Origin: Cryomorphaceae bacterium | GTDB taxonomy: Bacteria > Bacteroidota > Bacteroidia > Flavobacteriales_D > Crocinitomicaceae | Assembly: GCA_021299335.1 (NCBI GenBank) | Contig: JAJTGF010000012.1 | Coordinates: 1 to 50,313, forward strand | Length of the DNA stretch: 50,313 nucleotides | Direction: 5' to 3' | In this document: piece by piece, positions 3,622 to 7,856 of the stretch | Layout of the letters: each line of letters begins with the position of its first letter | Position numbering within the stretch: the first letter of the stretch is position 1 | The notes under the pieces: model-generated | The model's input: the letters and a program-made list of their open reading frames with translations, nothing else | Told to the model about the DNA's origin: nothing | The model's database searches: none | Position numbers and translations under genes: made by a program

Positions 3622-4629
3622 TTAAGATTGATAATGTTTGAGTAAGCATTGCGCTCTTTCTTTGAGCGTTTGACGTAAACTAGCAGGTTCGAGCACCTCG
3701 ACTTCGCCCGCATAGCCTAATAAATTTCGGATAAATTCTTCGGTAATTAAAATGCGAAGTTCAAAAATGCTAAATGTTGGCTGTTTCTCAACTAATTTTT
3801 GAGAAGCATGAAAAGCTTGTGTTTCAATGTAGCGCGCCGCAACTGGTTCTGCTTTGATGGTGATTTTGACGGCTTCTCCTTTAAATGCGGTAATGCCAAC
3901 TGCATCTCGAAAGTAGTCGGTGGCGTTGAAGTCTGCGGGGATCTGAGCGGCTTCGTCCAGGAGCTGCAATTCGGTCATGCGGTCGAGGGCAAAGGTGCTG
4001 ATGTCCTTTTTTTGAAGGTCATAGGAGATGAGGTACCAGCGGTTGCGGTATTCCTTCAAGAACAACGGACTTACTTTTCTGGGTTTGGATTGTTGTTGTT
4101 GAAAACTGGTGTACATAAACCACACCCGCTTCTTGGCCTGTATGCCCTCCAAAAGTGTGGGTAGGTATTCATTGCCACCTGCAGAAACAGCGGCTTCAAA
4201 CTGAATGAATTCGGAGAGTTCTTGACTTTGATCCCCAACGGCAACGCGGTCTACGATTTTGTCGATGGCCAAACCAAATTGCTGAAAGAAAGGCACTTCT
4301 CTAAATTGCTGCAGTGTAGAAACCGCAAAGCGAATGGAAGAAAGTTCGTCTTCGGAAAGCGGAACGTCGTTGATACTGAAATCCGGATCCTCGTAGAAAT
4401 AACCCCCGTTTTTTTTGCTGTAACGGATAGGAGCATCGTGTTCCATTTTCATCGTAAAGAGGTCTTTTTCGATGGTGGATGCACAAATATGTGCGCCAGA
4501 TTCCGAACCAAATAAAGCATCCTCACATGCTGATCGCAGCGCCTCTTTTGACGGAAAGGGCTTGTATTTATTGCGCAGCATCCGGTCGATGATGCGGTAG
4601 CGAATCAGCGCATTTTTAATGTGGGGCAT
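3622..4629 (-). CDS. WYL-domain transcriptional regulator
   Basis: A predicted cytosolic DNA-binding regulator of 335 residues. Residues 1-80 look like the winged-HTH usual in this family (IDRMLRNKYKPFPSKEAL and STIEKDLFTMKMEHDAPI). The WYL domain spans roughly 165-235 with RNRWYLISYD at 195-204, followed by a C-terminal ligand-sensing extension. WYL domains bind ligands such as nucleic acids or nucleotides and control DNA-damage, defence or metabolic genes. Its ATG shares a base with the end of the preceding gene at 4629, and paaG begins 3 bp after its stop, so it is translated inside the six-gene operon. It may control the operon itself; the target is unknown. Confidence 0.87.
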   Translation of the reverse strand: MPHIKNALIRYRIIDRMLRNKYKPFPSKEALRSACEDALFGSESGAHICASTIEKDLFTMKMEHDAPIRYSKKNGGYFYEDPDFSINDVPLSEDELSSIRFAVSTLQQFREVPFFQQFGLAIDKIVDRVAVGDQSQELSEFIQFEAAVSAGGNEYLPTLLEGIQAKKRVWFMYTSFQQQQSKPRKVSPLFLKEYRNRWYLISYDLQKKDISTFALDRMTELQLLDEAAQIPADFNATDYFRDAVGITAFKGEAVKITIKAEPVAARYIETQAFHASQKLVEKQPTFSIFELRILITEEFIRNLLGYAGEVEVLEPASLRQTLKERAQCLLKHYQS

Positions 4630-6044
4630 TAGTGTTTTTCCAATTTTTGCTGGTAGCCAAAGAGCTCGAAAAATTTGATGGCTTTTACTACTTCATACGG
4701 AACGTCGTCTTCCCAACTGTGCACATTGGCTTTGATTTTGCTGAGTACGTCGTCGGATAAAATATGGAGCAGACTTGGGTCATATTCTTGTAGTGCCGTG
4801 ATTTTATCGTTGGCTTGCATGTAATTGAGCAGCCCGATCATGTTTTCTGGCAGTTTGATATTGCCAAGGTGGTACAAACTACCGTCTTCCACATTGATTG
4901 CCGGATAAATATACAGTTTCACGTTGTGTCCGAAACCGCGTCCAAAAGCTTCTAATAGACCGCCTGGCAAATTGTCGTAATATTTCTCATCAAAAATGAT
5001 GTGAAGGTTATAGATACCCATAATGACCCCAACGAGATTTCCTCTTGCAATAGAGGAGAGGTACTCGAGCATTTTGTAGTGCTTGAGGTAGTTTGAGACC
5101 ATTACAGTATAGCCCAAAGAACCAAGTAATTCGGCGCGATCGAGGAAGTCTTTGTCCGAGATTTTGCCATCGGCGGTGAGGTCTTTGAGGGTGAGTTCAA
5201 AGACAACCTCTAGTTGCTCTGGCTTGACGCGCTTTTCTTTGGCAAAAGTTGCTCGAGCGCGTTCAATCATGTCGATGTGCACTTTGGTGACCGGTCTGAA
5301 TCGGCCCCTCATGAGCAATATGTTTTTCTTGTAGAGCGCAGTGGAGGGTTGTAATACGTTTTTTGCTAAATCGAACATGGTGGCATTGGTGATGCCGCGG
5401 CGCACTAAATTGAGTGCAATGATGCGGTTGTCCATGTCCTCGAAATCGGGGCCAGAAATGCGGAGCATATCGATTTCCATGCGGTCTGGTGGCAAGCGGT
5501 GTACGATTCCATCTATGAAATCGTTTATGTTGCCCGATTGAAAATAACAAGCGTAAATCAGGTTGACCCCGAGAATTCCCAAAGCTTCTTGTTGGGCTTT
5601 GTGGCTGTTGTCATGCATTTTGATGTGCAAAATGACATCGTTGGGCTTTTTATCGAGGCCTAATTGAAAACGAAGCCCGACCCAACCTTGACCTTGGTTG
5701 GTTTTGTGGTAATTGAGTGCTTCTACCGTATTGCAAAACGCAAAGAAACGAGCCTCTCTATTCTTGACAGGCAAGATGTCTTGCAAGTGCTTGAATTCGG
5801 TTTGGAGCATAGTAAGCAAGCGCTCTTCACAGACGTATCGGACGGTTTCCCCGTACATGGAGTCCGATACTTTCATGTCGTAGGCAGATTGCGTGTAGGC
5901 TATTGTACCGGAGCTTCCGCCCGCTTTAAAGAAATTAGCCGCCACCTCTTGGCCAGCGCCAATTTCGGCAAAACAACCGTAGATATCTTGAGTCAGGTTG
6001 ATTTTAAGGGCTTTGTCTTCGGTTGTTAAACGACTTGCGCTCAT
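4629..6044 (-). CDS. Unrecognised 471-residue protein with a CoaD-like T-x-x-H nucleotidylyltransferase motif
   Basis: I do not recognise a characterised relative. The protein has no signal peptide or membrane segment and looks cytosolic. Residues 242-263 read as a beta strand followed by GRFRPVTKVHIDMIERA. This resembles the nucleotide-binding start of phosphopantetheine or NMN adenylyltransferases (GxFDPxTxGHxDxI, the H/TxGH motif), with Thr253 and His256 kept and the Gly replaced by Val255. The motif sits in mid-chain rather than at the N-terminus, so about 240 residues of unassigned sequence precede it. I see no clear second ISSTxxR motif. The gene starts 1 bp after the di-haem peroxidase stop and touches the WYL regulator start. 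From memory such proteins in Bacteroidota carry unreliable automatic names; function is open. Confidence 0.6.
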   Translation of the reverse strand: MSASRLTTEDKALKINLTQDIYGCFAEIGAGQEVAANFFKAGGSSGTIAYTQSAYDMKVSDSMYGETVRYVCEERLLTMLQTEFKHLQDILPVKNREARFFAFCNTVEALNYHKTNQGQGWVGLRFQLGLDKKPNDVILHIKMHDNSHKAQQEALGILGVNLIYACYFQSGNINDFIDGIVHRLPPDRMEIDMLRISGPDFEDMDNRIIALNLVRRGITNATMFDLAKNVLQPSTALYKKNILLMRGRFRPVTKVHIDMIERARATFAKEKRVKPEQLEVVFELTLKDLTADGKISDKDFLDRAELLGSLGYTVMVSNYLKHYKMLEYLSSIARGNLVGVIMGIYNLHIIFDEKYYDNLPGGLLEAFGRGFGHNVKLYIYPAINVEDGSLYHLGNIKLPENMIGLLNYMQANDKITALQEYDPSLLHILSDDVLSKIKANVHSWEDDVPYEVVKAIKFFELFGYQQKLEKH

Positions 6045-6045
6045 G

Positions 6046-7119
6046 TTAGTGTGGGTCTTTGAAATTCGGATTGGAAATAAAGGAGGTGTCTGTAAGGGTC
6101 AGTAAGAATTTTTTGAGCAAATATTTTTCTTGGGCATTGAGTTGCACACCTCCCTGATTGGCAAATTCGATAAGCGGGTCGATGGTCGGGGAGACGTGCA
6201 CGCCGCTCGAATAGTGCTCAATGACTTCGTCGAGTGTCTGAAAACGTCCGTCGTGCATGTAGGGTGCACTCAAGGCGATATTGCGCAGGGTGGGTACTTT
6301 GAATTTGCCGTAATCTTCTGGGTTGCCTGTTACACCACCGCGGCCCAGATCGGTGAAATTGGCATCTAGCCCGTTGTTGGAGTATTTTTTGACGCGCATG
6401 AGCGGTCCGTTGTGACAATGAAAGCAATCGGCGCCATTTAAACTTTTAAAGAGGTCATATCCCGCCCATTCTTCGACGTCCACAGTTTGAAGTATGTTTT
6501 GTTCTTGGGAGGTTAAGGACATGCCATTTTCGTATTTATACATGACGTCAAATTTGGACGACGCGGAAATCATGGTGCGGATAAATTGCGCGATGGCTTT
6601 GGTTACCTTGATGGAGTCGATGCCGGGTTCGCCAAATGCGCGGTAAAACTTGTTGCGGTAGTTGATATCGAGATTGAGTTTGTAGACGGCGTCGGTCCAA
6701 GTTTGATGCATTTCAATTGGGTTCGGAATAGGTTCGAGAATTTGTTGTTCTAGTGTGGCAGCGCGGCCATCCCAGAAAAAGAAATTGTCCCAACCGAGGT
6801 TGATGAGTGCCATGGAGTTGCGCGTGCCTGCAATCCCGTCGATACCAGTAGAATACTTGTTTGGATCAGAAAAACTGCTCTGCGACAAATGGCAGGAGGC
6901 ACAGCTCATGGAGTCATTGCCCGAGAGTCTTTTTTCGTAAAATAACCAGCGTCCGAGTTCTACGCCTTCCTGCGTCATGGGGTTGTCTGAAGGAATAAGC
7001 ATGTCGGGAAAATGACTCGGGATTTCCAAAGCATAGGGGGTGGGTCGAAAGGTGGTTTTGTCCTTTCTACACGCACTCAAAAAGAGTAATAGGCTTAAGA
7101 AAATCAAGATTCTAAACAT
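6046..7119 (-). CDS. Di-haem cytochrome c peroxidase family lipoprotein (MauG/CcpA/MbnH-type)
   Basis: A 357-residue exported di-haem c protein. A lipoprotein signal ends at FLSAC17, placing it in the periplasm or on a membrane. Two haem-binding motifs are visible: CASCH (73-77) and CFHCH (232-236). FKVPTLRNIALSAPYMHDG in the C-terminal domain is diagnostic of the bacterial peroxidase/MauG superfamily. Members either reduce H2O2 or oxidise protein side chains. Its ATG overlaps the stop of the MbnP-like gene (TAATG), implying coupled translation. MbnH, the MauG-type partner of MbnP, converts an MbnP tryptophan to kynurenine, so a protein-modifying role is a strong alternative to peroxide removal. 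Confidence 0.9.
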   Translation of the reverse strand: MFRILIFLSLLLFLSACRKDKTTFRPTPYALEIPSHFPDMLIPSDNPMTQEGVELGRWLFYEKRLSGNDSMSCASCHLSQSSFSDPNKYSTGIDGIAGTRNSMALINLGWDNFFFWDGRAATLEQQILEPIPNPIEMHQTWTDAVYKLNLDINYRNKFYRAFGEPGIDSIKVTKAIAQFIRTMISASSKFDVMYKYENGMSLTSQEQNILQTVDVEEWAGYDLFKSLNGADCFHCHNGPLMRVKKYSNNGLDANFTDLGRGGVTGNPEDYGKFKVPTLRNIALSAPYMHDGRFQTLDEVIEHYSSGVHVSPTIDPLIEFANQGGVQLNAQEKYLLKKFLLTLTDTSFISNPNFKDPH

Positions 7120-7856
7120 TAGTATGGGCTGATAGCGTTTTTGAAATTATCGATTACTTTTTGCGTGAGTGCTTCTTGACCCGCCGCGGTATGGGTAAGG
7201 TATTCTGTACTGAGGTCGATGCTATTTACCCCTTGGCCCAAGAAAGCCAATAGGTCGAGTTTGAGTTTGAACTGGCGCGTGTTGTTGCCGATGTCGGTCC
7301 AGTTGATGTTGTTGAACTGCAGATTTTGCAGATATGGATCGGTGCCGATATGGAAACTGAAGGATAAATCTGTGTTGGTGGTTGCATCGATGATGGTGTC
7401 CACTTTGCCCTCGATATTCATGAAGATGTAACCTGGGTTCCAGCCCCAGTGCATAGGCCCCGCATTGCTGATGTTGAGCGGGCTTTCGTTAGGAAAAGCG
7501 CTTGGATCGAGGTGGTTGAGTGTTGAATCAACACCGAGAACAGCACTTAGGTTGGTGAATTTGGTGTAGTCACCTTCCTTTTTGAATAAGAGGCTACCCG
7601 TTTCTCGGTAGTCAAGAAGTGCGGCTTGGTGCAGCGCGGTGCTGCCATTGCCAAAGAGCGTAAAGTAGCACTTGAGTTCTGTAAATTTGATTTTGTATCC
7701 CTCTGGTGTTGTATAGATGCTGTCCATGTAAAATGGGAGGGCGCCAAAAACAGGTTGCATGGCTACCTGGAGCTGGGCTTTTGGAGCCTCAGGTTTGTCT
7801 TTATCGCAGGCCACTGTAAGCAGCAACAGCGGAAGGCAAAAAAATATTGTTTTCAT
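7119..7856 (-). CDS. MbnP-like copper-binding lipoprotein
   Basis: A 245-residue exported protein with a lipoprotein signal ending at LTVAC17. The body is a predicted beta-rich MbnP-type domain with KIKFTELKCYF (56-65) and HWGWNPGYIFMNIEG (136-150). In characterised MbnP a tryptophan is oxidised to kynurenine by its partner MbnH to complete a copper site; Trp137 and Trp139 next to His136 are candidates here. The di-haem gene follows with a 1-bp TAATG overlap, the same pairing. I see no methanobactin precursor or biosynthesis genes nearby. The gene heads the six-gene operon, and a TAnnTTTG element ends 4 nt before its ATG. Family assignment is from memory of motifs. Confidence 0.75.
   Translation of the reverse strand: MKTIFFCLPLLLLTVACDKDKPEAPKAQLQVAMQPVFGALPFYMDSIYTTPEGYKIKFTELKCYFTLFGNGSTALHQAALLDYRETGSLLFKKEGDYTKFTNLSAVLGVDSTLNHLDPSAFPNESPLNISNAGPMHWGWNPGYIFMNIEGKVDTIIDATTNTDLSFSFHIGTDPYLQNLQFNNINWTDIGNNTRQFKLKLDLLAFLGQGVNSIDLSTEYLTHTAAGQEALTQKVIDNFKNAISPY

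Follow-up and report, generated by a model that had tools for sequence, protein, structure and literature searches.

Within the 50,313-nucleotide stretch of contig JAJTGF010000012.1 (assembly GCA_021299335.1, a Cryomorphaceae bacterium placed in the Crocinitomicaceae) that is called the window here, an open reading frame on the minus strand runs from an ATG at position 6044 to position 4629 and encodes a protein of 471 amino acids (aa). A first-pass annotation had singled this protein out for the segment GRFRPVTKVHIDMIERA (residues 247-263), read as the nucleotide-binding motif of a CoaD/NMNAT-type nucleotidylyltransferase with Val at the place of Gly, and had described the roughly 240 residues before it as unassigned. 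The reading frame and the motif are real. Our structural models support the view that the protein combines a CinA-C/PncC (nicotinamide mononucleotide [NMN] deamidase) fold with an NMNAT/NadD fold in one fused chain, and the residues before the motif are predicted to hold the first of these domains and a linker. The gene is laid out as follows.

4629..6044, minus strand: whole gene, 471 aa, with predicted PncC-fold domain, linker and NMNAT-fold domain (open reading frame and models)
5523..6035, minus strand: predicted CinA-C/PncC-fold domain, residues about 4-174 (VIA-align to 6l19_A, both models)
5946..5972, minus strand: FAEIGAGQE, residues 25-33, at the place of the PncC ESCTGG nucleophile block (approximate profile alignment)
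5862..5888, minus strand: SAYDMKVSD, residues 53-61, at the place of PncC YxNxxK (approximate profile alignment)
5334..5522, minus strand: linker including a small alpha/beta segment, residues 175-237 (model secondary structure; outside the ranges matched by VIA-align)
4647..5333, minus strand: predicted NMNAT/NadD-fold domain, residues about 238-466 (VIA-align to 1nup_A; profile match to NadD)
5268..5309, minus strand: degenerate T/HxGH motif RGRFRPVTKVHIDM, residues 246-259 (residue counts in 153 sequences)
4743..4763, minus strand: ILSDDVL, residues 428-434, counterpart of the NadD C-terminal Ser/Arg motif (profile alignment)

The protein has no good Pfam or NCBIfam model and belongs to an unlisted, unclassified bacterial family. 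The Pfam scan matched CTP_transf_like (PF01467) to residues 245-269 with an E value of 0.2 and 12.3 bits, against a gathering cut-off of 21, and the NCBIfam scan matched coaD (TIGR01510) with an E value of 0.058 and 13.4 bits, against a curated cut-off of 103.3; TIGR00482 was absent from the NCBIfam matches with E values up to 10 and, in the window's genome, matches only the separate NadD. A sequence search of the PDB with the window protein gave no match. When 23 members of the family were scanned singly, the best matches carried unrelated names (E 0.0047 in Pfam and 0.0013 in NCBIfam), PF01467 was reported for one member (E 0.2), an archaeal NMN adenylyltransferase model matched four (best E 0.059), and neither TIGR00482 nor PF02464 was among the matches with E values up to 1. 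A PDB profile search with the 23 members put an unrelated protein first (E 0.017) and gave CoaD (3f3m) an E value of 0.16.

Two structures were predicted, that of the window protein (predicted local distance difference test 88.0, predicted template modelling score 0.85) and that of L140, a homologue that is 44% identical to it and has Asn at position 256 (predicted local distance difference test 84.3). Each model was built from 40 sequences, namely, the window protein and 39 non-redundant sequences out of 80 candidate loci. With VIA-align, the N-terminal domain of the window model aligned with 6l19_A (164 residues) at a Z score of 16.1 and a root mean square deviation of 2.9 over 152 residues and with 2a9s_A at a Z score of 15.5 and a deviation of 2.7 over 150 residues; for L140, both Z scores were 16.0. 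The C-terminal domain aligned with 1nup_A (213 residues) at a Z score of 16.3 and a deviation of 3.7 over 201 residues, with a Z score of 15.8 for L140, and the best Foldseek match of the window model was a NadD (E 5.8e-6). A fold missing from the VIA-align lists is not thereby excluded. A HUP-fold domain (Rossmann-like nucleotidyltransferase) had been anticipated near residue 242, and in both models it is predicted to start at about residue 238. PncC converts NMN to nicotinic acid mononucleotide (NaMN), and NadD converts NaMN to nicotinic acid adenine dinucleotide (NaAD), according to PMC4246079. Since PncC makes the NaMN that NadD uses, the protein would join the folds of two consecutive steps in the recycling of nicotinamide adenine dinucleotide (NAD).

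The residue counts given below refer to an alignment of 153 of 182 matches, from which identical copies and pieces shorter than 350 aa were dropped; the genome-contig scan of relatives comprised the best 80 of 197. Two broken or N-containing genes (L179 and L180) were kept among the 153 and left out of the C-domain profile; in both loci the gene is split into two matches by a frameshift or an assembly gap (an unread stretch in L180). Because the 153 sequences are weighted to close relatives, 22 or 23 representatives were also used, the 23 being <70% identical to one another and serving for the counts of invariant columns.

In PncC, the catalytic dyad consists of Ser31 and Lys63, and the phosphate is bound by Ser48, Tyr58, and Arg145; activity was undetectable in the S31A, K63A, Y58A, and R145A variants (PMC5384747). 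In the family, the ESCTGG block gives way to EIGAGQ, with each residue from E27 to Q32 conserved in 152 of 152 sequences and one gap, so that the catalytic Ser31 is replaced by Ile. S53, A54, Y55, D56, and S60 are each present in all 153 sequences, and in the approximate mapping, Ser60 takes the place of the general base Lys63; close to this place, K58 is Lys in 90 sequences and K57 in 50. By the same mapping, Tyr58 corresponds to Y55 and Ser48 to S45 (144/153), while positions 148-150, at the Arg145 place, hold no conserved Arg. The alignments thus support a replacement of the PncC Ser/Lys dyad in this domain. Among the 23 representatives, the N-terminal domain has 42 invariant columns out of 168, the linker 1 out of 65, and the C-terminal domain 8 out of 229; the N-terminal set includes E27, Q32, T47, S53, Y55, D56, S60, R69, T106, W121, H140, and Q151.

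The C-terminal domain also departs from its enzyme relatives at the catalytic positions. Escherichia coli NadD retained 0.62% of its activity in the H19A variant (His19 of T/HxGH) and 0.038% in D109A (PMC1249556). Across the 153 family members the consensus of motif 1 is R-G-x-F-R-P-x-T-x-V-(H/N)-x-D, with R246 in all sequences, T253 in 142, and V255, at the Gly place, in 146. The first-pass annotation had named in advance a lack of conservation of Thr253 or His256 as evidence against its proposal; Thr253 is nearly invariant, but such evidence exists for His256, as position 256 is His in 87 sequences, Asn in 62, Thr in 3, and Gln in 1. Among 22 diverse representatives it is Asn in 15, His in 3, Thr in 3, and Gln in 1, and in a tree of 32 members, this residue needs at least six changes, with Asn (in L053) found even beside the window's own branch. 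The place of NadD Asp109 is position 345, with 89 Tyr, 43 Asn, and only 3 Asp. The counterpart of the NadD C-terminal motif, which we take to be Ser/Thr-x-x-Arg, ends in L434 at the Arg place (Leu in 143, Phe in 3, Ile in 1, and a gap in 6), and the NadD Asp13 place is Arg250 in 147. These counts support the replacement of the NMNAT catalytic residues.

In 7 of the 79 Bacteroidota genomes that hold the family, belonging to two families, the match ends before the C-terminal helices. In five of these seven, motif 1 reads RTKxxQKSxPN or nearly so, with no T/HxGH-like motif, and the same five retain the whole N-terminal set, including FAEIGAGQE, SAYD, and RYV. The C-terminal half thus appears to be decaying in some lineages and the N-terminal half does not. 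Because of this, and because the invariant columns are concentrated in the N-terminal domain, its pocket is probably the part that matters.

The kinship of the C-terminal half was also addressed by profile comparison, with 28 of 30 fetched loci for NadD and 30 of 30 for CoaD. Against the NadD proteins of related genomes the C-half profile was collinear over 195 columns (score 20.6, P 6.1e-4), and against the 28 Bacteroidota NadD sequences at default settings, the best local match scored 36.6 (P 1.1e-4) over 114 columns, covering about residues 326-462 and not motif 1; the maximum score with 30 column-shuffled NadD alignments was 22.9. CoaD matched the profile over 28 columns at motif 1 only (P 0.0056), and its score of 24.6 lies slightly above the shuffled maximum, which comes from shuffling NadD alone. 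Of the expected CoaD/NMNAT-type domain, the NMNAT/NadD likeness therefore extends over the length of the domain, while the CoaD likeness stays at motif 1. We rejected a CoaD or CTP_transf_like enzyme for this confinement and for library scores under the cut-offs. The similarity at motif 1 is weak by sequence alone, yet it is beyond chance, because the region is conserved in relatives, the NMNAT fold is predicted from about residue 238 in two models, and the C-half profile beats the shuffled NadD alignments.

The two folds and the replaced catalytic residues are supported by the models and alignments; the ligand, the partner, and the function we infer. With both known active sites replaced, the protein may have a new way of sensing or processing a nucleotide instead of carrying out the old reactions. 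We consider the chances to be evenly balanced that the enzymes of two consecutive NAD-recycling steps were joined and then both re-purposed, as a pyridine-nucleotide sensor made from two dead enzymes or as a new class of PncC-fold enzymes. The same even balance applies to the part of this reading in which the invariant pocket of the PncC fold is entirely new, made up of EIGAGQ, T47, SAYD, S60, RYV, T106, GW, H140, and Q151. The best specific explanation, which we put forward somewhat more tentatively, is that the fused PncC-fold and NMNAT/NadD-fold domains have both given up their textbook reactions and that the protein acts as a sensor or buffer of pyridine mononucleotides. The N-terminal pocket, re-made with its new invariant set, would be the working site; it apparently keeps the phosphate-loop Ser and Tyr of PncC and would bind a pyridine mononucleotide (for instance NMN or NaMN) or a closely related compound. 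The NMNAT half would be a secondary ligand-binding or scaffold domain that is being lost in some lineages, and the protein would report or buffer the levels of NAD precursors via partners rather than make NaMN or NaAD.

Several observations weigh against this sensor or buffer explanation. Four hhalign comparisons of the N-terminal domain with CinA (14 of 30 fetched loci passing the motif filter in one analysis and 10 of 30 in another) gave no significant match, with E values of 0.50 to 0.88, so the kinship with CinA rests on the predicted fold and the mapping of residues is approximate; the nonsignificant profile alignment agrees with the order of secondary structure. The two models are not fully independent because their alignments share most rows. 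K11 in the first helix is the sole invariant Lys of the N-terminal domain. In the C-terminal domain, motif 1 is partly kept (T253 nearly invariant, His256 in the window protein and in 87 of the 153), and the change to Arg250 carries less weight because relatives carry Asn at the Asp13 place even in their canonical NadD.

In the main rival explanation, which we regard as possible but less probable, the N-terminal domain would be an enzyme that carries out new chemistry on the PncC fold by means of E27, Q32, Y55, D56, S60, R69, H140, and Q151, and the NMNAT-like domain would have a substrate-binding or structural role. The high share of invariant columns in the N-terminal domain, many of them polar, would suit a catalytic site better than a mere scaffold, but a conserved ligand-sensing pocket would look alike. 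The surroundings of the gene outside the close relatives (defined as 73 to 98% identical and mostly titled Crocinitomicaceae or Flavobacteriales) offer a hint at phosphoribosyl chemistry. In 21 of 41 such loci (L142 to L181 and L140), a gene for a PhnP-like metallo-β-lactamase-fold hydrolase lies near the family gene in opposite orientation, and by our reading, it is the direct neighbor in 20 of the 21; the family assignment comes from two proteins scoring below the curated cut-offs. The window's genome holds a 46% identical homologue of this hydrolase, cut by a contig end. A functional link between the two genes is possible.

That the protein is an active bifunctional enzyme, with NMN deamidase and NaMN adenylyltransferase in one chain, would fit two folds that stand for consecutive steps of one pathway. 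We consider it improbable, as the Ser/Lys dyad was not found, the NMNAT residues are changed, and canonical CinA and NadD are also present. Among 40 related genomes, matches over the curated cut-off were found for canonical CinA in 39, NadD in 38, and CoaD in 38, and the window's genome has all three. With these canonical copies elsewhere, the protein does not fill a gap at any of the three steps, and we rejected it as the sole NadD, CoaD, or CinA of the genome.

A new working nucleotidyltransferase of CoaD/NMNAT type with a changed motif, as the first-pass annotation had suggested, is quite improbable. The conservation of R246 and Thr253 and the His256 found in over half of the sequences speak for it, and related folds may accept an Asn where the second His stands. 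Against it stand the Val at the Gly place, the Leu at the Arg place, and the Asp109 place, which is other than Asp in 150 of 153; with these further catalytic positions changed, such a family becomes unlikely, and seven genomes lose the C-terminal helices.

Directly downstream of the gene lies the regulator to which the first-pass annotation had tied one of its two suggested functions.

3622..4629, minus strand: WYL/WCX-domain regulator gene, directly downstream (Pfam scan, neighbor count)

A nucleotide sensor dedicated to this regulator is very improbable and cannot be a general role: the stop codon of the 471-aa gene overlaps the WYL ATG by one base (TAATG) and among the close relatives the WYL gene is the same-strand neighbor in 69 of 72 loci, but outside them it is so in 0 of 40, though the protein is conserved there. 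The two genes belong to a tight same-strand run of an MbnP-family gene, a gene for a MauG/MbnH-like di-haem protein, the 471-aa gene, the WYL/WCX regulator, and an enoyl-CoA hydratase/isomerase, which continues with a 387-aa protein and then a 418-aa protein; from their sequences, these last two look like a 3-hydroxyacyl-CoA dehydrogenase and an S-adenosylmethionine synthetase, respectively. The upstream MauG/MbnH-like and MbnP-family pair (window positions 6046-7856, minus strand) is of the MbnH/MbnP copper-protein type, with a TIGR04039 match of 252 bits that lies below the cut-off of 363, and the MauG-like neighbor accompanies the 471-aa gene in 68 of the 72 close-relative loci and in 0 of the 40 others. 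The genome context does not settle the role of the 471-aa protein.

The family is chromosomal, conserved, and widespread in Bacteroidota. Of 40 related genomes, 33 carry it (24 of the 28 more complete ones), and a sample of 392 genomes from across Bacteroidota gave 79 with the family. Plasmid and phage records gave no match to the family, and two viral-contig scans gave two loci each, including the full-length L140 copy on a 58-kb contig that we take to be cellular DNA. A mobile or defense gene was rejected on the unmatched plasmids and phages and on the weakness of the single PHROG match (E 0.037) and the single PADLOC match (E 0.013). The gene is under strong purifying selection, as the whole-gene ratio of nonsynonymous to synonymous substitution rates is 0.012 to 0.026 for seven of eight close relatives, the eighth pair being saturated. 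Closer relatives were used because synonymous sites are saturated in relatives at 74 to 89% identity, and the values are rough because these sites are near saturation here as well. One genome that holds a 57% identical copy also carries a second, 33% identical copy (L161, positions 4899-6281, plus strand) on a very long tree branch. Two metagenome-assembled genome records titled Sphingomonadales (L036) and Kuenenia (L088) carry orthologues that are 95% and 74% identical, respectively, which suggests mislabelled bins.

The closest known systems each share a part of this protein. With PncC/CinA-C (PF02464; Agrobacterium tumefaciens CinA, 2A9S) it shares the predicted fold over about 150 of 164 to 167 residues and, in the approximate mapping, Ser and Tyr at two phosphate-binding places, but it differs in the Ile for the catalytic Ser, the Ser for Lys, the lack of a conserved Arg at the R145 place, and the lack of a significant sequence match. 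NadD/NMNAT (1NUP, 2H29) resembles it in the predicted fold over about 200 residues and the collinear profile alignment with Bacteroidota NadD, whereas the family has TxV(H/N), changed Asp109 and C-terminal Arg places, a PncC-fold domain in front, and no TIGR00482 match. CoaD (TIGR01510) shares the Thr at the first motif position and the 28 columns at motif 1, but its score falls far below the cut-off and NMNAT is the better match for the remainder of the domain. Full-length CinA (COG1058-PncC), found in the same genomes, likewise fuses a PncC-fold domain to a second nucleotide-acting domain, but the partner there is an N-terminal pyrophosphatase (PMC4246079) and here a C-terminal NMNAT fold. 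NrtR, a Nudix-related regulator of NAD synthesis, is an analogy for the use of an NAD-pathway enzyme fold in regulation; homology is not claimed, and no DNA-binding domain was recognized in the 471-aa protein. Occasional fusions of CinA domains with other domains are mentioned, and were set aside, in PMC3855486, and no description of a PncC-NMNAT fusion was found in the titles and abstract openings of the literature covered, most subscription papers lying outside this coverage.

If our reading of the protein as a re-purposed PncC-NMNAT fusion is correct, an unlisted protein family would be added to NAD metabolism in Bacteroidota, and it would provide an example from nature of two paired metabolic enzymes put to another use, with sharply defined residues. 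Should NMN or NaMN be what is sensed, the protein would be a candidate for the control of NAD levels in Bacteroidota.

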